A DNA stretch of 39,058 nucleotides, taken from IMG/VR virus record IMGVR_UViG_3300046002_002764, positions 1-39,058 of that record; one strand, 5' to 3'. A program made the translations under genes and the position numbers. Positions 4,023-13,280 of the stretch are shown here, piece after piece. A model generated the notes under the pieces. That model did no database searches and was not told where the DNA came from. It worked only from the letters and a program-made list of their open reading frames with translations. Each line of letters starts with the position of its first letter. Position 1 is the stretch's first letter. Source of the stretch: a virus.

Positions 4023-4118
4023 ATGAAAGATAAAATTATAATAACATTATTTTGGATGGCAGTTATTACGTCAATTATTTTATCAGTTTTGATAATCATA
4101 TATTACAGCGGAACATAA
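4023..4118 (+). CDS. 31-residue single-span membrane peptide
   Basis: The ATG directly abuts the MazG-like stop codon. The product has a charged MKDK start followed by one long hydrophobic stretch (IIITLFWMAVITSIILSVLI) and a short YYSGT end, so it should be a single membrane-spanning peptide. Its stop codon lies inside the left end of the first attC-like repeat, the usual position of a cassette ORF relative to its attC. It is either a phage gene next to the insertion point or the first cassette ORF. The function is unknown. Confidence 0.5.
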   Translation: MKDKIIITLFWMAVITSIILSVLIIIYYSGT

Positions 4119-4243
4119 CGTTATTCAGCTTGTTGCAGGCGTGGAATAGAAGCGTAAACTTTCAAATTATAAACAAAGATTAAAAAACACGCAATCGATT
4201 GGATAAAGCCTAAAGCCACGCTTGCTACAAACTGATGTTAGGC
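4113..4243 (+). repeat. attC-like recombination site 1
   Basis: A long imperfect inverted repeat. TTGTTGCAGGCGTGG at 4130-4144 pairs with CCACGCTTGCTACAA at 4216-4230 (13 Watson-Crick pairs, one wobble, one mismatch). Outer ends ACATAAC (4113-4119) and GTTAGGC (4237-4243) are the R'' and R' boxes; the right one fits the GTTRRRY consensus exactly, the left misses RYYYAAC at one base. Three extra bases sit on the left strand between the outer and inner pairs. The loop is 71 bases. This is the architecture of integron attC sites. Confidence 0.65.
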
Positions 4244-4244
4244 G

Positions 4245-4520
4245 ATGTATTTTATTATGTCATATTTTGAAAAATTTAGAAGAAAACAAATTGCGGAATT
4301 AAGAACTGTAACGCAAGAAGATGTAAACGAGTTTAAAGAAAGAAGTTTACTTTCTGCTCACGAAACAAAAGACAATGTAATTGAGGTTTCAATTAGCGAT
4401 GTTGATTTAGCAAACGGTTCTCCAAAAATAGGAGATATGATTGCAAGAAATCCTAAAAATCATTTAGACCAATGGTTAGTTGCTGAACAATATTTCAATG
4501 ATAATTTTGAACGTTGTTAG
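4245..4520 (+). CDS. cassette ORF A, small phage-type protein
   Basis: A 91-residue protein. I recall similar small proteins from many tailed phages: FEKFRRKQIAELR-T-VTQEDV at the N-terminus and NGSPKIGDMIARNPKNHLDQ followed by WLVAEQYFNDNF at the C-terminus. The function is unknown to me. ATG 4245 is two bases after the R' box of attC-like site 1; ATG 4257 (MSYFEKF) is the more typical start and gives 87 residues. The stop TAG at 4518-4520 is 14 bases before attC-like site 2. It is the only frame between the two sites and runs in the direction expected for a cassette gene. A phage-type gene in a cassette setting is unusual. Confidence 0.75.
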   Translation: MYFIMSYFEKFRRKQIAELRTVTQEDVNEFKERSLLSAHETKDNVIEVSISDVDLANGSPKIGDMIARNPKNHLDQWLVAEQYFNDNFERC

Positions 4521-4534
4521 GTGGTAATATATCG

Positions 4535-4667
4535 CATAACGTTCGAGTGCTTGCCGTTCGGTGGCAATTTCAAGACCAAAGATAACAAAGAAATAATAAA
4601 CATTAAATAAGCCGAAATATTTCGGATATAACCCAAGCCTGCCACTGACGGCAAACACTTGTTAACA
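4535..4667 (+). repeat. attC-like recombination site 2
   Basis: Left arm: CATAAC (4535-4540), AGTG, TTGCCGT (4551-4557), a TCG spacer, GTGGC (4561-4565). Right arm: GCCAC (4641-4645), a TG spacer, ACGGCAA (4648-4654), CACT, then GTTAACA (4661-4667). The blocks pair over 7, 5 and 4 bases with unequal unpaired spacers (three against two), as in the central region of attC sites. Stem sequence is unrelated to site 1 while the plan is the same. The right box departs from GTTRRRY at two bases. The loop between the arms is 75 bases. Confidence 0.6.
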
Positions 4668-4689
4668 GCAGGCTTTTATACTTAAAATT

Positions 4690-4995
4690 ATGATTTCAGA
4701 TTTAAAAATATGTTTAAACGCTCCTTTAGATTATACTCTTGAAGATGAGCAAAGATTTATTTATTCTTATGGTTCAGTTAATTGTAGAATATTAAAATTT
4801 AAAGATGCAAATACGGTTATAAAAATAATGGACGAATTTGATAAAGATGCGTTACAAAAAGAACAAAAAGAATTTATTTTAAAAAACTCAAACAAAGAAG
4901 TTTTAGTTTATATGAATAGAGCTTATGGCGAGAATATAGATTGTTTTGTTTACGGTGACGATAACATTGCGTTTCGTGTAAGTTGTTTCGTGTAA
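4690..4995 (+). CDS. cassette ORF B, hypothetical protein
   Basis: A 101-residue protein that I do not recognise. It is a mixed alpha-beta protein with an acidic, Asp-rich middle (IIKIMDEFDKD in type), a Lys/Glu helix and a beta-rich C-terminal part (CFVYGDDNIAFRVSCFV). Three or four cysteines are present. No signal peptide or membrane segment is seen. The gene starts 22 bases after attC-like site 2 and its stop TAA (4993-4995) lies eight bases before site 3, so it fills one cassette unit exactly. Cassette genes of unknown function are typical of environmental integrons, and this one has no visible link to phage growth. Confidence 0.7.
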   Translation: MISDLKICLNAPLDYTLEDEQRFIYSYGSVNCRILKFKDANTVIKIMDEFDKDALQKEQKEFILKNSNKEVLVYMNRAYGENIDCFVYGDDNIAFRVSCFV

Positions 4996-5002
4996 GCTTG
5001 CT

Positions 5003-5135
5003 GTTAACGTTCCGTGGCTTTGTCGTCGTTGTGGCGAATGAGCCTAAATCTTAAAAACACAAACTATGTTTAAATTTATAACCAATCTTTTCAAAAAATC
5101 CCTAATACCACAATGCGACAAAACCGCTGTTATGC
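5003..5135 (+). repeat. attC-like recombination site 3
   Basis: Left arm: GTTAAC (5003-5008), then GGCTTTGTCG (5016-5025), a TCG spacer, TTGTGG (5029-5034). Right arm: CCACAA (5108-5113), a TG spacer, CGACAAAACC (5116-5125), then GTTATGC (5129-5135). The blocks pair over 10 (one mismatch) and 6 bases. Spacers are the same length and sequence (TCG against TG) as in site 2, although the paired sequences differ. The right box departs from GTTRRRY at one base. The loop is 73 bases. The next ORF's preferred ATG lies inside the right box. Confidence 0.6.
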
Positions 5136-5251
5136 CTAGTATTTTGTCGTTAGAAAAACAAGTTCTTAGAAAAATTAGAGATTATGATTTTCTTATTGAA
5201 AGAAGATATGAAGAAATAAGTATTATGTGTAAAAAACCTATTGTTAGTTAG
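5132..5251 (+). CDS. cassette ORF C, first part, ends at an amber codon
   Basis: A 39-residue helical, charged product (MPSILSLEKQVLRKIRDYDF and on) that starts inside the right box of attC-like site 3. The frame is also open back to ATG 5066, but those extra 22 codons are made of the loop and right arm of the repeat, so they are unlikely to be native coding sequence. Translation stops at TAG 5249-5251. The same frame then stays open for 39 more sense codons to TAA 5369-5371, which suggests a single 79-codon gene broken by a nonsense change. The function is unknown. Confidence 0.45.
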   Translation: MPSILSLEKQVLRKIRDYDFLIERRYEEISIMCKKPIVS

Positions 5252-5371
5252 GACAAAAATGAAGAAGCTGAATTAGAAATATTAGAGAAAAATATAATGG
5301 AAAGTATAAACCATTACGAAATGCAGAAAAGATTATTACTTGATTTAATACTACCTATTAATAATAACTAA
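5252..5371 (+). pseudogene. in-frame continuation of cassette ORF C beyond the amber codon
   Basis: Thirty-nine sense codons follow TAG 5249-5251 in the same frame (DKNEEAELEILEKNIM and on) and end at TAA 5369-5371. The composition (acidic helix, then a Leu-rich helix) matches a continuing helical protein. An ATG at 5297 could start a 24-residue peptide. TAG is used as an ordinary stop by other genes here, such as the SSB-like gene whose C-terminal tail ends precisely at TAG. A nonsense mutation is therefore more likely than recoding. Confidence 0.4.
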
Positions 5372-5372
5372 T

Positions 5373-5531
5373 ATGAAATTAACACTAAGAGAAAAACAAG
5401 CGTTAAGCAGAATTAAAACTATGGCTGATAATGGATTTTCTTTGGATAAAATTAAAAGAAAATTAGAACCAAGATATTCAAGTTCAGAAAGAAAAAATGC
5501 TTTAGAATATTTTCTGTTTAGCAATAGGTAA
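5373..5531 (+). CDS. small basic protein of regulator-like type
   Basis: A 52-residue, Lys/Arg-rich helical protein that starts one base after the preceding stop. The sequence (LREKQALSRIKTMADNGFSL followed by DKIKRKLEP) suggests two or three helices as in small DNA-binding or RecX-like modules, but it is too short for a firm assignment. It ends 2-3 bases before the ATTAGGCATAAC motif that resembles a cassette junction, so it may be the last gene of the cassette cluster. The function is unknown. Confidence 0.5.
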   Translation: MKLTLREKQALSRIKTMADNGFSLDKIKRKLEPRYSSSERKNALEYFLFSNR

Positions 5532-5533
5532 TA

Positions 5534-5613
5534 TTAGGCATAACTCGTAAATATACGCAAGTGCCTTTCTAACCTATTAAAAACAAGCAACTTAAAAAAA
5601 TAGTAGTTGCGTA
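5534..5613 (+). repeat. possible degenerate fourth attC-like site
   Basis: TTAGGCATAAC at 5534-5544 joins what look like an R' box (TTAGGC) and an R'' box (CATAAC), the sequence expected at a cassette junction. TACGCAA at 5554-5560 pairs with TTGCGTA at 5607-5613, but the second paired block and a clear right-hand box are missing. An alternative hairpin (GCAACT at 5587-5592 with AGTTGC at 5605-5610) uses some of the same bases. It may be a decayed site that ends the array. Confidence 0.3.
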
Positions 5614-5628
5614 AAAATAAATATTAAT

Positions 5629-5967
5629 ATGGGAACAATTAAAAAACATTATGAAAAAGAAATAAAAAAAAACAACATAGCCAGGGCAGAAATGATTGAG
5701 TCAATATTAAAAAGAAAAGTAATAACACTTGATCAATATAAAAAGACAGCACTGTTTATACCTAAAAAAGAATACTTAAAACAAAACATAAATGTAAAAC
5801 TAAACAAAGATTGCGTCATGGTATCTGAATATATAGGTGGAGGAATAATACAAGTAGATGATGAAGGAATATTTACATTTAATAATTTCAATAGTAAAGA
5901 TATTGATAAAGTAGAGCAGGTATTGTGGGAAGAAAACGCTGAAGGATTTTGGTGTAAAAATTGTTAA
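5629..5967 (+). CDS. hypothetical protein
   Basis: A 112-residue protein that I do not recognise. The first half is helical and very basic (KKHYEKEIKKNNIARAEM, then ILKRKVITLDQYKK). The second half is beta-rich (VMVSEYIGGGIIQVDDEGIF) and ends in GFWCKNC, whose two cysteines might bind a metal or form a disulfide. It is the first gene after the cassette-like region and is followed by a 75-base AT-rich gap with a promoter-like element, so it probably ends the preceding transcription unit. No function is proposed. Confidence 0.65.
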   Translation: MGTIKKHYEKEIKKNNIARAEMIESILKRKVITLDQYKKTALFIPKKEYLKQNINVKLNKDCVMVSEYIGGGIIQVDDEGIFTFNNFNSKDIDKVEQVLWEENAEGFWCKNC

Positions 5968-6009
5968 TAAGTAATGCAATAAAATGAACAATATATAATC
6001 ATTTATTAT

Positions 6010-6017
6010 TATATTTG
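6010..6017 (+). promoter_or_regulatory. Bacteroidota-type -7 promoter element (TATATTTG)
   Basis: TATATTTG fits the Bacteroidota TAnnTTTG consensus exactly and lies 25 bases before the start of the gene at 6043, in an AT-rich gap. No clear -33 TTTG box is seen. It would drive the recombination block at 6.0-8.5 kb. Confidence 0.5.
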
Positions 6018-6042
6018 TTTTTTGTAAATTAAATTAAATCAA

Positions 6043-6351
6043 ATGAAAGAAAATGTTTTTAATCAATACGTAGATAAGGTAATAAACTTATTTGGTATTA
6101 GTAGAGATGACTTATTCTCTAAATCAAAGAAGAGAAACCTAGTAGATGCAAGGCAGTTGCTCTATTACTTATGCTCAAAAAGAAATATTCAAGTAACATA
6201 TATTCAAAAGTATATATTAGAGAACGGATATGACACAGTACATTCAACAATAATTCATGGCATCGCAGTCGTAGAATCAAAAGTAAAAGAAGATAGAGAT
6301 TATGAATCTATAGTAAATAGCATAAACCTATCTGTATTTATTAGTAATTAA
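6043..6351 (+). CDS. DnaA domain IV-like DNA-binding protein 1
   Basis: A 102-residue protein whose second half resembles the C-terminal, DnaA-box-binding domain of the replication initiator DnaA. VDARQLLYYL (residues 34-43) corresponds to the R-x-IAMYL helix, and YDTVHSTIIHGI (63-74) to the DHTTVxHA recognition helix. There is no AAA+ ATPase part. It may bind the phage origin, recruit host DnaA or helicase, or act as a transcription regulator; these are inferences. It has its own promoter-like element and the TTAAATCAAATG leader, and it precedes the recombination genes. A second protein with the same motif is encoded at 14312, and the two share VDAR and HSTIIH. Confidence 0.65.
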   Translation: MKENVFNQYVDKVINLFGISRDDLFSKSKKRNLVDARQLLYYLCSKRNIQVTYIQKYILENGYDTVHSTIIHGIAVVESKVKEDRDYESIVNSINLSVFISN

Positions 6352-6366
6352 ATCAAATTAAATCAA

Positions 6367-7077
6367 ATGGAAAAAACAAAAACAACTTTCGAGTTATTGT
6401 CAGCAGTTAATGTGAACGACAAAGTAGAAAAGAAAAGTAATTTAACTTACTTATCTTGGGCTTGGGCCTGGGCAGAAACAAAGAAGTCTTGTCCTGATGC
6501 TTCTTATCAAATAAAAGGAGACCCTATTACTCAGAAGCCGTACTTCTATGATGAAAATCTTGGGTACATGGTAATGACGGAAGTGACTATTAAAGATGAA
6601 ACACTAGAGATGTGGCTACCCGTTATGGACGGAGCGAACAAAGCTATGATGGCAAAACCATATACTTATAAAGGTAATGCTTGGGTAAACGGAAAAAAGG
6701 TAGAGGTTGATAAGACTGTTGAAGCAGCAACTATGTTTGATATTAATAAAACATTGATGAGATGTTTGACTAAGAATTTAGCAATGTTTGGTATTGGACT
6801 ATATATCTATGCAGGTGAAGATCTTCCCGAAGTAGACAATACAAGCAGTACTACTCAAGCACCTACAAAAGCTGAGACAATGTCAAAACCAAAAGAAACT
6901 ATCATCAAAGAACTTGAAGATCTTAAAAAAGATACTGATGCCTGGGGCAAAGTAGTTGCTTACATAAAAGCTAATAAATCATTAGGAATTGATGCTATAG
7001 TTAAACAGCTTAGTAGAAAATACACAATGACACCTGCTGTCAAAAAAGAAATTGTTAACTTAGTATCTGAAGAATAA
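6367..7077 (+). CDS. single-strand annealing protein, DUF1071/Sak3 type
   Basis: A 236-residue protein whose N-terminal half matches the DUF1071 group of Rad52-like annealing proteins. The diagnostic Trp-rich segment LTYLSWAWAWAETKK is at residues 26-40, followed by MTEVTIKDETLEMWLPVMDG and then TMFDINKTLMRCLTKNLAMF near 150. Proteins of this type anneal complementary single strands in phage recombination and usually pair with an exonuclease. The C-terminal 60 residues are a charged linker and helices. The stop overlaps the start of the exonuclease gene as TAATG, which supports a joint role in recombination-dependent replication or repair. A tandem TTAAATCAAA lies directly before the start. 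Confidence 0.8.
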   Translation: MEKTKTTFELLSAVNVNDKVEKKSNLTYLSWAWAWAETKKSCPDASYQIKGDPITQKPYFYDENLGYMVMTEVTIKDETLEMWLPVMDGANKAMMAKPYTYKGNAWVNGKKVEVDKTVEAATMFDINKTLMRCLTKNLAMFGIGLYIYAGEDLPEVDNTSSTTQAPTKAETMSKPKETIIKELEDLKKDTDAWGKVVAYIKANKSLGIDAIVKQLSRKYTMTPAVKKEIVNLVSEE

Positions 7078-8734: not shown

Positions 8735-11158
8735 ATGACACACACGGTTACAATCTTTCAAAACATACGTGATACAGACACTCCTTTCTTCAGAGATATC
8801 AATATAATTCTTGAAAGAATAAAAGACGGAGCAGGTGCAACTAAAGACATTGTAAAGAGAATAAGACAAGAAAAGAATAAGTCAGAGCGTAATGAAATTA
8901 AGAAGTTATTACCAGCGATTTGTTTTAGTGGTACGTTTAATAAAAGATTAGATAGTGCTATATCTCAACACTCAGGTATTATATGCCTTGACTTTGATGG
9001 ATACTTAAAACAAAAAGAATTACTACAAGACAAAGAGACAATATCTAAAAACAAATATGTTTTCTCTGTATTTATATCTCCTTCAGGTAATGGTTTAAAA
9101 GTACTAGTAAAGATACCAGCGGATGTTGATAATCATACAAATTACTTTAATAGTCTTGAAAAGCATTTTAATAGCCCTTATTTTGATAAAACTAGTAAAA
9201 ACATTAGTAGAGTATGTTACGAGAGTTATGACCCTTTAATTCACGTTAATATCAATTCTTCTATATGGGATATAATTGAGGAACCTGAATACACAGAAGT
9301 AAATAAAGTAAGAGATGTTGCTACAATACCAATCTCAGATGAAAATAAAATAGTTGAGATACTTGTAAAGTGGTGGCAGAAGAAATACCCAATGCAAGAA
9401 GGACAAAGAAACCATAATGCATATATACTTGCAATGGCCTTTAATGACTTTGGTATAAACAAAAGCTTAGCCGGGTATGTATTGAATCAGTTCTCTACAT
9501 CTGATTTTACAATACCTGAGATTACAGCAACTATAGATTCAGCATACAAGCATACTGCTAACTTCGGAACTAAATACTACGAAGACGAAGAGAGGATAAA
9601 TCAAATCAGAGGAAAGCTAAGAAGAGGAGTGTCAAAAAAAGAGATACGCTACCAACTTCAAGACTCTAACCTGGATAGCGATACAATCGAATCTGTTTTA
9701 AATAAAATCGAGGAAGAAAATTCTAAGATGACATTTTGGACCAAGAACGATAAAGGAGTTATAAAAATAGAGCATATATTATTTAAGCAGTTTCTTGAGG
9801 ATTCAGGATTTTATAAATTTTGTCCCGAAGGAAGTAGAAATTATGTATTTGTAAAAGTAACAAACAATTTAATTGACCATACTACAGAGAAAGAAATAAA
9901 AGACTTTGTACTTAATCACTTACTTGACCTTGATGACTATAGTATTTATAATTATTTTGCAGACAATACCAGGTTCTTTAAAGACGACTTTCTTACTATG
10001 TTATCTACAATAGAGATATACTTCATTGCAGATAATAAAGACTCAGCATATTTATATTATAAAAATTGTGCAGTAAAAATAACAAAAGACAATATACTAA
10101 TCATAGATTATCTTGATTTAGGTGGATACGTTTGGAAAGACCATGTTATAGATAGAAATTTTAATATCTGTGAAGTTACAGGAGACTGCGATTTTAGAAG
10201 ATTTATTTCAAATATAAACGGAGGAGACGAGAATAGAATAAAAACAATGGAGAGCACTATAGGATTTCTTCAGCATGGATATAAGAACTTATCTTTCTGT
10301 CCTGCCGTAATACTTAATGACGAGGTAATTAGTGATAATCCCGAAGGAGGTACAGGAAAAGGACTTATAATGAATGCTCTTAGTAATATGAAAAAACTTG
10401 TAGTTATAGATGGAAAGTCTTTTAACTTCGAGAAATCATTTCCTTATCAGTTGGTGTCAGCAGATACTCAGATACTTTGTTTTGATGATGTAAAGAAACA
10501 CTTTGATTTCGAAAGACTATTTAGTGTTATTACAGAGGGTCTTACTCTTGAAAAGAAAAACAAAGATGCGATTAAAATACCATTCTCAAGATCACCGAAG
10601 GTTGCTATAACAACTAACTACGCAATTAAAGGAGCTGGTAATTCATTTGCTAGAAGAAAATGGGAGCTTGAACTTCATCAACACTACACTATGAATTTCA
10701 CTCCAAGAGATGATTTTGGAAAAATGATGTTTGGCGATTGGAATGATGATGAGTGGTGCGAGTTTGATAATTATATGATTTATTGCCTTAGGTTTTACCT
10801 TACAAGCGGACTTGTTAAATCTAAGTTTGTTAATCTTAAGATACGACAATTATCAGCAGAGACTTGCCACGAATTCATAGAGTGGTGTGGATTAGTTGAT
10901 AGCAATGATAGAAGCACTGTACTACCTAGTAACGTTAGACTTTATAAGAATGAACTTTATAGTATTTTTGTTGATGAATATCCTGACTACGGAGCTAGAG
11001 GTAAGATGACTATTAGTAGAACTAAATTCTATAAATGGCTAGTATCTTACGCTATTTATAAAGAAGGTATCATGCCTGAAGAAGACAGAGACCATATTGG
11101 AAGATGGATAATATTTAAAAAAAGAGCAGATAATGAAACTCAAATTCAATTAAATTAA
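8735..11158 (+). CDS. primase-helicase (BT4734/VirE-N-like, PriCT, SF3-type ATPase)
   Basis: An 807-residue multidomain replication protein. Residues about 1-180 resemble the BT4734/VirE N-terminal module that accompanies prim-pol type primases in Bacteroidota (ICLDFDGYLK near 85, then ISPSGNGLKVLV). Residues about 205-290 fit a PriCT-type helical domain (YPMQEGQRNHNAYILAMAFN). The C-terminal half is an SF3/D5-like helicase with Walker A GGTGKG (about 537-542), Walker B ILCFDDV (about 580) and a sensor AITTNY (about 624). It should unwind and prime phage DNA. No DNA polymerase is visible in the window, so it probably hands over to the host replisome. An AT-rich intergenic region precedes it. 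Confidence 0.85.
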   Translation: MTHTVTIFQNIRDTDTPFFRDINIILERIKDGAGATKDIVKRIRQEKNKSERNEIKKLLPAICFSGTFNKRLDSAISQHSGIICLDFDGYLKQKELLQDKETISKNKYVFSVFISPSGNGLKVLVKIPADVDNHTNYFNSLEKHFNSPYFDKTSKNISRVCYESYDPLIHVNINSSIWDIIEEPEYTEVNKVRDVATIPISDENKIVEILVKWWQKKYPMQEGQRNHNAYILAMAFNDFGINKSLAGYVLNQFSTSDFTIPEITATIDSAYKHTANFGTKYYEDEERINQIRGKLRRGVSKKEIRYQLQDSNLDSDTIESVLNKIEEENSKMTFWTKNDKGVIKIEHILFKQFLEDSGFYKFCPEGSRNYVFVKVTNNLIDHTTEKEIKDFVLNHLLDLDDYSIYNYFADNTRFFKDDFLTMLSTIEIYFIADNKDSAYLYYKNCAVKITKDNILIIDYLDLGGYVWKDHVIDRNFNICEVTGDCDFRRFISNINGGDENRIKTMESTIGFLQHGYKNLSFCPAVILNDEVISDNPEGGTGKGLIMNALSNMKKLVVIDGKSFNFEKSFPYQLVSADTQILCFDDVKKHFDFERLFSVITEGLTLEKKNKDAIKIPFSRSPKVAITTNYAIKGAGNSFARRKWELELHQHYTMNFTPRDDFGKMMFGDWNDDEWCEFDNYMIYCLRFYLTSGLVKSKFVNLKIRQLSAETCHEFIEWCGLVDSNDRSTVLPSNVRLYKNELYSIFVDEYPDYGARGKMTISRTKFYKWLVSYAIYKEGIMPEEDRDHIGRWIIFKKRADNETQIQLN

Positions 11159-11160
11159 TT

Positions 11161-11334
11161 ATGGAAGATATAATTTACACTCAAGAAGAGATTTTAAAAA
11201 ACATTGAAGTCTTTAGAAAAAAAGAAGACGAATTGATAGGGCAAAGGAAAGACTTGAATAAAGCAATTCATCATACGAAAAAACAAAGAGAACATTGGGA
11301 GTTGTTAGATATTAGTCAACTTAAATTAATATAA
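11161..11334 (+). CDS. 57-residue coiled-coil-like protein
   Basis: A short frame two bases after the primase-helicase stop. The product is entirely helical and charged (TQEEILKNIEVFRKKEDELI, then KDLNKAIHHTKKQREHWELL) with a heptad-like pattern, so it probably forms a coiled coil. The function is unknown. Its tight spacing to both neighbours argues for a real gene in the same operon. It starts a chain of micro-ORFs that leads to the helicase gene. Confidence 0.6.
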   Translation: MEDIIYTQEEILKNIEVFRKKEDELIGQRKDLNKAIHHTKKQREHWELLDISQLKLI

Positions 11335-11336
11335 CT

Positions 11337-11414
11337 ATGGAGGACAAAGGAACACCATACTATAAATATGCTTATGGTAAATTTATTTTAGTCGGATATA
11401 TAAAAGAAGAATAA
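11337..11414 (+). CDS. 25-residue micro-ORF
   Basis: A tiny frame starting two bases after the previous stop. The stop-to-start junction TAACTATG is repeated at the next junction. The product (MEDKGTPYYKYAYGKFILVG and five more) is Tyr-rich with a short hydrophobic end. It may be a genuine peptide or a coupling ORF that carries ribosomes along. Support is only spacing and an intact frame. Confidence 0.35.
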   Translation: MEDKGTPYYKYAYGKFILVGYIKEE

Positions 11415-11416
11415 CT

Positions 11417-11497
11417 ATGAGAAAAAAATTTTTACGAGTATTAATTATAGTAATTTACTTTACTGTAATACGTTTAATATTAATTAGCAGTTTATGA
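11417..11497 (+). CDS. 26-residue membrane peptide
   Basis: A tiny frame after the second TAACTATG junction. The product is MRKKFLR followed by a single hydrophobic segment (VLIIVIYFTVIRLILI), consistent with a one-span membrane peptide oriented by its basic N-terminus. Its stop overlaps the next start as ATGA, which suggests translational coupling. It resembles the 31-residue membrane peptide at 4023 only in type. The function is unknown. Confidence 0.45.
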   Translation: MRKKFLRVLIIVIYFTVIRLILISSL

Positions 11498-11829
11498 GAA
11501 AAAAACAAATGGTACATATAAGTATGATGAATTCATACAATGTACTTACAGGTAAAGTAAAAGTAGGAGATGTATTATCCTCCGGAATAGGAATGTTTTC
11601 TCACTCCTTAGAATCAAAAGATGCAATGGAAAGTGTAAACTTTATGATCATGTATTTTCAACAACTTGAGATGTACGAAAGGTGCTCAAAATTAAAAAAA
11701 TATGTTGATAAGACATTCAATAAAGATGGAACATTTAAACAAGAACCTTGCTCTTGTGACTATCCTGAGATTGAAGAGTACGAATCTCCTTTAAAATGCT
11801 CTATATGCAACTTGAACGTGATGATGTAA
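11494..11829 (+). CDS. hypothetical protein with a C-terminal Cys cluster
   Basis: A 111-residue protein. The first part is helical (FMIMYFQQLEMYERCSKLKK). The C-terminus has a four-cysteine arrangement, CSCDYPEIE and then KCSICN, which could bind zinc. I recall similar proteins (helical EMYERC-x-KLKKY plus a Cys-rich end) next to helicase genes in other Bacteroidota phages, without a known function. The start overlaps the upstream membrane peptide as ATGA. The 3' end overlaps the helicase gene by 34 bases (25 if the helicase starts at 11805), so all are probably made together. Confidence 0.7.
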   Translation: MRKKQMVHISMMNSYNVLTGKVKVGDVLSSGIGMFSHSLESKDAMESVNFMIMYFQQLEMYERCSKLKKYVDKTFNKDGTFKQEPCSCDYPEIEEYESPLKCSICNLNVMM

Positions 11830-13280
11830 TAGAAAGAGTATTAGCTCATAACAATCTTGAGATGTGGAAGAAATGTGAATTACTTAAAGGAGTAGTCACA
11901 AAAACTGTTGAAGTAAAAGAAGGAAGAGGTAAGAATGTTAAGGTTTATACAAAATACAAACATAACACACCTCAAGATGTTATTGATAAGATAATCAGAA
12001 GCTGTGAGTACTATAAACAATTACACGAAAAAGATATGGAAAGGAATAATCAAATAAAATTTAGGGATTATCAGAATGACATAATAAGGAAAGGAACTGA
12101 TATAATAAATCAATATGGTTTTGTTTATCTTGCAATGGAGGTTCGTTGCGGAAAGACACTAACTAGTCTTGGAATAGCAGAAAAGATTTCAAGCAGCAAT
12201 GTTTTGTTTTTAACAAAAAAGAAAGCAATCAGTAGTATTCAAAGTGATTACGAACTACTCAATCCTCCTTATCATTTAACAGTTACTAATTACGAGAGTT
12301 TACATAAGATAGATAATACTGATTGGGATTTGATTATTTGTGATGAGTCCCATAGTATGGGTGCATTTGCTAAACCAAGTAAAAGAGCTATCCAGGTAAA
12401 AGACCTAATATATAAGACTAAAGCAAAGGTTATCCTATTGTCAGGAACGCCTACTCCTGAATCATATTCTCAGATGTATCATCAAGTTTATGGAATACCG
12501 AAAAATCCTTTTGCAGAGTATAAAAATTTTTACAGATTTTGTGATAACTTTGTAAACGTTACAACTAAAATGATAAATGGTTTAGTAATGAAAGATTACT
12601 CTAAGGGATTAGATACAATTATTCAAGCTATGGAGCCATTCACTATCAATTATACTCAAGAAGAAGCAGGGTTTGTTGCAAAAACAACTGAGGAAATTTT
12701 TGAAGTAGAGTTAAAAGAATCAACCTATAAGTTGATTAAAAAACTCTCAAGAGATTTAGTTGTACAAGGAAAGGAAGAAGTTATCTTAGGAGATACTCCT
12801 GTAAAGTTAATGATGAAAATGCATCAGTTATACTCAGGAACTATTAAATTTGAAAGCGGTAAGTCTATGATTATAGATACTACTAAGGCTGATTTCATAA
12901 AAGAGCAGTGGGAAGGTTGTCAGATTGGTATTTTTTATAAGTTCAAAGAAGAATTACAAGTTTTAAAGAAAGTATTTGGAGATGAACTAACAACGGATCT
13001 TGATGAGTTCAATAGCACATATAAAAACATCGCCTTACAGATTGTATCAGGACGCGAAGGAATATCATTAAAGAAAGCGGAGTACTTAGTCTACTACAAC
13101 ATAGACTTTAGCGCGACAAGTTATTGGCAGTCAAAAGACAGGATGACTACCAAAGAGAGATTAGAGAACCAAGTGTTTTGGATATTCGCTAAAGGAGGCA
13201 TCGAGCACGAGATTTACAAAGCAGTAACAAAAAAGAAAGATTATACATTATCACACTTTAAAAAAGATTTTTACTTATGA
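11796..13280 (+). CDS. SNF2-type (SF2) DNA helicase/translocase
   Basis: A 494-residue superfamily 2 ATPase. Motif Q/I: FRDYQNDII near 89, then MEVRCGKTLTSLG (about 112-124) with the phosphate-binding GKT. Motif II: LIICDESHSMG (about 179-189). Motif III: LLSGTPTPES (about 213). C-terminal lobe: SGREGISLKKAEYLVYYNID and QSKDRMTTKERLENQ, which supply the Arg finger. The length fits compact phage helicases. It probably acts in replication, recombination or removal of bound proteins from DNA. The stop overlaps the next start as ATGA. ATG 11805 is a possible alternative start. The first 85 residues form a helical N-terminal extension. Confidence 0.85.
   Translation: MLYMQLERDDVIERVLAHNNLEMWKKCELLKGVVTKTVEVKEGRGKNVKVYTKYKHNTPQDVIDKIIRSCEYYKQLHEKDMERNNQIKFRDYQNDIIRKGTDIINQYGFVYLAMEVRCGKTLTSLGIAEKISSSNVLFLTKKKAISSIQSDYELLNPPYHLTVTNYESLHKIDNTDWDLIICDESHSMGAFAKPSKRAIQVKDLIYKTKAKVILLSGTPTPESYSQMYHQVYGIPKNPFAEYKNFYRFCDNFVNVTTKMINGLVMKDYSKGLDTIIQAMEPFTINYTQEEAGFVAKTTEEIFEVELKESTYKLIKKLSRDLVVQGKEEVILGDTPVKLMMKMHQLYSGTIKFESGKSMIIDTTKADFIKEQWEGCQIGIFYKFKEELQVLKKVFGDELTTDLDEFNSTYKNIALQIVSGREGISLKKAEYLVYYNIDFSATSYWQSKDRMTTKERLENQVFWIFAKGGIEHEIYKAVTKKKDYTLSHFKKDFYL

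Follow-up and report, generated by a model that had tools for sequence, protein, structure and literature searches.

Integron cassettes in phages, and attI sites apart from an integrase, have been described before. The accessible part of Qi et al. 2023 (PMC9892861) reports CALINs in virulent phages, including Polaribacter phage P12002L, and in its tests five of six attC sites underwent recombination with IntI1 and attI1; the ability of phages to carry cassettes, which a preliminary description of the present locus proposed, was already published there. Like our locus, these CALINs consist of attC-bounded cassettes without an integrase, some with methyltransferases. Unlike it, they are given no attI in that part of the paper, nor are related phages compared there to show turnover at an attI. 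The same part of the paper describes a CALIN with its own attI in Shewanella prophage M16-3, which resembles our locus in having an attI and an attC array apart from an integrase, yet this prophage, which is inactive, also holds a complete integron, and the locus is not recurrent. Sedentary chromosomal integrons of the Vibrio type share attI, attC, G|TT boundaries, and polar growth at attI with our locus, but they include an integrase, their IntI has an extra domain, and their ORFs read mostly away from attI. According to IntegronFinder 2, there is one complete integron in Bacteroidetes proper, that of Salinibacter ruber.

The locus lies in a linear virus record of 39,058 bases (IMG/VR record IMGVR_UViG_3300046002_002764), the whole of which was analyzed and is called the window below. 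This record is probably incomplete (relatives reach ~60 kb), and its phage probably infects flavobacteria, judging from sequence. The primase shares 74.5% identity with its counterpart in environmental phage MW202828, and its N-terminal part shares ~43% with the primase of Flavobacterium elemo phages; Sak, exonuclease, DnaA-like, and virion genes are also encoded. As far as sequence can tell, the window holds an integrase-less array of one attI and three cassettes (4119-5543). With a probability of about 0.8, we propose that it is an integron platform of which only the DNA sites are left, and that it would be served in trans by the integrase of the infected host and would swap accessory cassettes. 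In the literature covered by our search, outside whose scope many subscription papers fall, we met neither phage arrays that combine an attI and cassette turnover with the lack of an integrase nor the Flavobacterium recombinase/attC system described below. What appears new here is a phage array that is anchored by an attI, has no integrase, turns over its cassettes, and is reversed in polarity; a host integrase presumably serves it.

Three inverted repeats of a common plan had been noted in the window by the preliminary description, correctly placed except that left ends were off by one base. They are the top three of the whole window in a scan for TAAC...stem...GTTA (scores of 42.0 for attC1, 43.5, and 40.5), for which the chance rate is 0.05 sites scoring at least 40 per 39-kb strand (60 shuffles, same scan). 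Our covariance model, R1, is based on 16 sites, none of them from the window; they come from the chromosome of Flavobacterium muglaense (L162), from one relative (L006), and from several virus contigs. It is our own model in place of the published attC model of IntegronFinder, uncalibrated on published, experimentally tested phage attC sites, and its E-values are rough; it matches all three repeats, namely, attC1 at 4113-4243 (E of 1.5e-15; R boxes at 4113-4119 and 4237-4243), attC2 at 4534-4667 (6.3e-10), and attC3 at 5002-5135 (3.6e-12), and the next best match in the window has an E of 0.31. In the integron frame, all three lie on the minus strand, the attC1 hairpin being modeled on the plus strand. 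A frame on the plus strand was considered and dropped, since the layout of bacterial recombinase and attI puts it on the minus strand.

Structure conserved without sequence, which had been claimed for the three repeats, holds across the 16 sites of the model: unequal spacers (5 and 1 nt) lie beside TAAC and GTTA, and the stems covary without sequence conservation, with pairing in 89.9% of cells versus 64.9% when shuffled and a covariation score of 0.657 versus 0.20. With their imperfect hairpins, conserved AAC/GTT ends, and structural conservation, the window's repeats are, by model match, attC-type sites, as the preliminary description held. R1 found no match in P12002L, TJE1, or part of MW202828; it is therefore a flavobacterial-type model, and the attC type of P12002L and TJE1 differs from that of the window. 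An Rfam search gave no match. Small phage genes are often separated by imperfect hairpins, and ordinary terminators, processing sites, or ends of homing elements might resemble attC; given the R1 E-values, the matched cassette ends and attI described below, and the arrays on bacterial chromosomes in which these sites accompany other genes, we find this explanation scarcely credible.

An integron cassette begins with bases that mirror the R'' box of the attC it carries. When the window is parsed from the right end, its three cassettes show R''/R' matches of 7/7, 7/7, and 6/7; among bacterial cassettes, 87 of 94 match at 6/7 or better. Cassette 1 (4119-4539, plus strand; the 6/7 match, extended 13/15 allowing 2 mismatches) comprises attC1 and ORF C1 (4245-4520, plus strand; 91 aa, likely start at 4257). 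Cassette 2 (4540-5007, plus strand; 7/7, with 10 contiguous complementary bases) comprises attC2 and the 101-aa ORF C2 (4690-4995, plus strand). Cassette 3 (5008-5543, plus strand; 7/7, likewise with 10 contiguous complementary bases) contains attC3 and two short ORFs, C3a (5066-5251, 61 aa) and C3b (5373-5531, 52 aa), both on the plus strand. Single small ORFs between the repeats had been reported, and the ORFs are placed as claimed, except that the third unit has two of them and that C3a starts inside the third repeat, within the attC3 loop. An in-frame TAG (5249-5251) ends C3a in a frame open to 5372; the gene may be disrupted or wrongly assembled, and the stop may reflect decay.

Homologues of C1 are found in attC-flanked cassettes with matched ends in a Flavobacterium muglaense chromosomal array and in several phage contigs, so that a homologous cassette, which the preliminary description suggested looking for in bacteria and other phages, exists in both. 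In other phages, C1 homologues are ordinary genes without cassette context. ORF C2 and cassette 2 had no relative in the phages, virus contigs, or genomes searched, and PADLOC reported nothing for the window cassettes. The R1 matches, the matched ends, the Flavobacterium chromosomal homologue, and an empty site in related phages together support the reading of these units as integron-type cassettes.

The empty site was found in relatives L001, L002, L003, and L005, in which the flanking genes are adjacent with no array between them. The last phage gene to the left of the array is a small membrane-protein ORF (4023-4118, plus strand), and the first to the right is a 112-aa gene (5629-5967, plus strand). 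Homologues of the latter come directly after MazG-like/TM genes in all four relatives, and the left gene adjoins this homologue in L001 to L003. Since the same genes adjoin in these relatives, the array is an insert between two phage genes. Rather than carrying the same ORFs in a fixed order, relatives have no array at this site or other arrays elsewhere. As the window is a metagenome contig, a bacterial array could have been wrongly joined to phage sequence during assembly. Such a chimera is very improbable given the many independent contigs in which arrays lie among phage genes, with co-oriented ORFs and conserved flanks.

The preliminary description stopped at 5135 and missed both the far end of the third cassette and an attI. 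Its integrase-less cassette cluster is supported as to the cassettes, but it is more than a cluster, as the array ends in a site matching bacterial attIs. At the end of cassette 3, the minus strand of the window reads TTGCGTATATTTACGA|GTTA (5541-5560); it has 0 mismatches to the pattern of bacterial type-2 attIs (consensus, TTGCGTRTATTTANRA|GTTA), with 0.07 matches expected at three mismatches or fewer. The 24 bases at 5541-5564 (GCACTTGCGTATATTTACGA|GTTA; the attI is also delimited as 5535-5564) score 24.6 bits, versus a shuffled maximum of 12.3, with a type-2 PWM made from only four bacterial attIs, all located 3' to an integron-type recombinase. Crossover is predicted at G5544|T5543. With attI at this position on the minus strand, the array would extend leftward from 5544; therefore, cassette 3, nearest attI, should be the youngest by the integron rule, and cassette 1, by its position relative to attI, the oldest. 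Of the features of a complete integron, the window has an attI adjoining the first cassette, by sequence match to bacterial attIs, and it has no intI with the IntI-specific extra domain. A family search found no phage-integrase-family gene (PF00589) in the 39-kb record, in line with the earlier statement that no integron integrase lies in the window. With three attC sites (at least two are required) and no PF00589 gene in this incomplete record, the locus falls within the definition of a CALIN.

Some phage arrays have no attI: the ends of those in L002, L004, and G006 yielded none. The end of the L006 array has a type-1-like site scoring 11.0 bits (next, 2.8); one window shuffle reached 17.2, and the match is suggestive only of an attI. 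Occurrences of the type-1 attI pattern in 54 virus contigs were taken as chance, none of the 54 having an attC match.

The array might alternatively be dead: illegitimate recombination would have captured part of a bacterial array a single time, this part would now be decaying, and attI would be a hitch-hiking remnant, with no recombination in the phage. CALINs in phages are already known, the in-frame stop in C3a would fit decay, and the arrays of L006, L002, and L004 lie at other places, partly without clear ends, as expected for independent captures. Yet a captured host fragment should retain the ORF direction of the host, and the phage cassettes are reversed. Counting only cassettes with matched ends, 82 of 87 chromosomal cassettes read away from attI, whereas 22 of 23 phage cassettes read toward it (22:1 versus 5:82; Fisher p of 2e-17, with related contigs not being independent). 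Nor was a recombinase remnant found beside the window attI. Together with the cassette differences between close relatives described next, these points make a dead array unlikely.

The preliminary description had taken the ORFs to lie as in ordinary cassettes. In fact, the chromosomal rule for how attC is oriented with respect to the ORFs is reversed here, and the array would grow from its right end, not its left. The window ORFs read toward attI, not away from it as in a complete integron, and the usual Pc promoter logic is therefore inapplicable. Wrong orientation calls were considered as a source of the reversed ORFs and rejected by parsing from attI itself. Because expression in phages must come from phage promoters, we infer that only cassettes with ORFs codirectional with phage genes are kept. 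In the phage polarity, attC precedes the ORF, and some ORFs, including C3a, start inside attC. Starts in the attC loop of reversed cassettes were seen in the window (5066-5134), in cassettes 2 and 3 of L318, and in L233 (19359); an N-terminal stretch is then encoded by the attC arm, and a K-T-(A/S)-V-like motif recurs in it.

The type-2 attI core is present in 16 other virus contigs, none with a tyrosine recombinase. In one group of these (group H: L307, L311, L313, L315/L317, and L320, where L315 and L317 are identical in sequence), attI lies ~70 bp upstream of a DnaB-like helicase gene, and one member carries terminase. Helicase-side flanks are 89 to 94% identical over 1.5 to 4 kb, the alignments end at +4 to +12 of the attI G, and the first cassettes beyond attI differ. 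In a second group (group K: L310, L318, and L322), the flanks are 91 to 99.7% identical and the attI flank is shared, with different cassettes beside attI; homology resumes at cassette ends 1466/1978/2205, and one distal cassette is common to two of the three contigs. As read from these alignments, this is the polar pattern expected from insertion at attI. At G|TT, beside the same attI, phages that are close relatives thus differ in whole cassettes, which speaks against a dead array. Junctions at this point would fit, as indirect evidence, recombination by an integron integrase on a folded strand.

A suitable recombinase is found on the host side. R1 matches attC sites in 130 of 150 Flavobacterium genomes, in arrays of up to ~60 sites, and a tyrosine recombinase of ~350 aa, present in 80 of the 150 and mostly in single copy, adjoins the arrays. 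Two types of this recombinase both fall below the NCBI integron-integrase cut-off, and the protein has no integron-specific (IntI) insert; the best solved relative of type 2 is the Vibrio integron integrase 2A3V. Between the recombinase 3' end and the first cassette, a short site that ends in G|TT is conserved, also in two types. These chromosomal arrays share the attC model of the window and, in four genomes, its attI type; unlike the window, they have the recombinase beside attI, ORFs reading away from it, and up to ~60 sites. Across the chromosomal loci inspected (L200 to L226, in G010 to G167), recombinase and cassettes are codirectional, and large attC arrays are common. In L217, L218 (G156:C1 997060-1014829), and L211 (G063), several tyrosine recombinases of 320 to 328 aa, each just after an attC, lie in or near arrays, as if cassette-encoded.

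An integrase might instead be encoded by the phage outside its known sequence or by a co-infecting element. Because the record is linear and probably incomplete, a phage integrase elsewhere is conceivable; most of the records are linear fragments, and complete integrons exist in temperate phages. Still, none of 23 virus records, including ones of 60 to 70 kb, some of them relatives of the window phage, has a Phage_integrase family gene, and the suitable recombinase is mostly a single-copy Flavobacterium gene. We therefore regard this possibility as quite improbable, less likely than a dead array.

Under the favored reading of a platform served by the host, the phage would infect a flavobacterium with a chromosomal integron, whose integrase would act in trans and join folded single-stranded attC hairpins to the phage attI at G|TT, so that a cassette would be added next to attI or one removed. 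The array would be transcribed from phage promoters toward attI, its cassettes being among co-directional phage genes, and the phage would swap small accessory genes as whole units, in related arrays often DNA methyltransferases. We infer the host enzyme as the recombinase, its action during infection, and an anti-restriction benefit. The pattern suggests that these viruses borrow host integron machinery to trade genes. With less confidence, though still on the favorable side, we think that Bacteroidota phages may keep an integrase-less integron (attI plus reversed cassettes) as a dedicated locus for countering restriction, exchangeable in content, driven in trans by an integron recombinase of flavobacteria without the IntI-specific domain, and with a cassette pool shared with host chromosomes. 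If so, viruses would maintain a cassette landing site and use the host's gene-capture system, beyond carrying stray cassettes; there would be a concrete, testable route for cassette movement between phages and chromosomes, and the rapid swapping of methyltransferase genes in phages would be accounted for. The results also point to a widespread Flavobacterium integron type with a recombinase that is below the NCBI cut-off and without the domain that standard searches use.

A selection of larger phage cassettes encodes DNA methyltransferases of the MT-A70, N6/N4, D12-like, and C5 kinds and, in one case, a PAPS-reductase/SspD-like protein; these cassettes were picked by size, and the methyltransferase finding is not a rate. 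L002, a relative of the window phage, has an array elsewhere (9454-11830), between exonuclease and SSB-like genes, with MT-A70 and N6/N4 methyltransferases. The L006 array occupies a third place (4840-6634), between HNH and MazG genes, with an end resembling type-1 attI. A 61.9-kb relative (G006; loci L231 and L233) has a GroEL-like gene, a primase homologue, and an attC array between exonuclease and primase. In L004, a stretch next to the array, at ~1430-1505, resembles a tRNA gene by eye.
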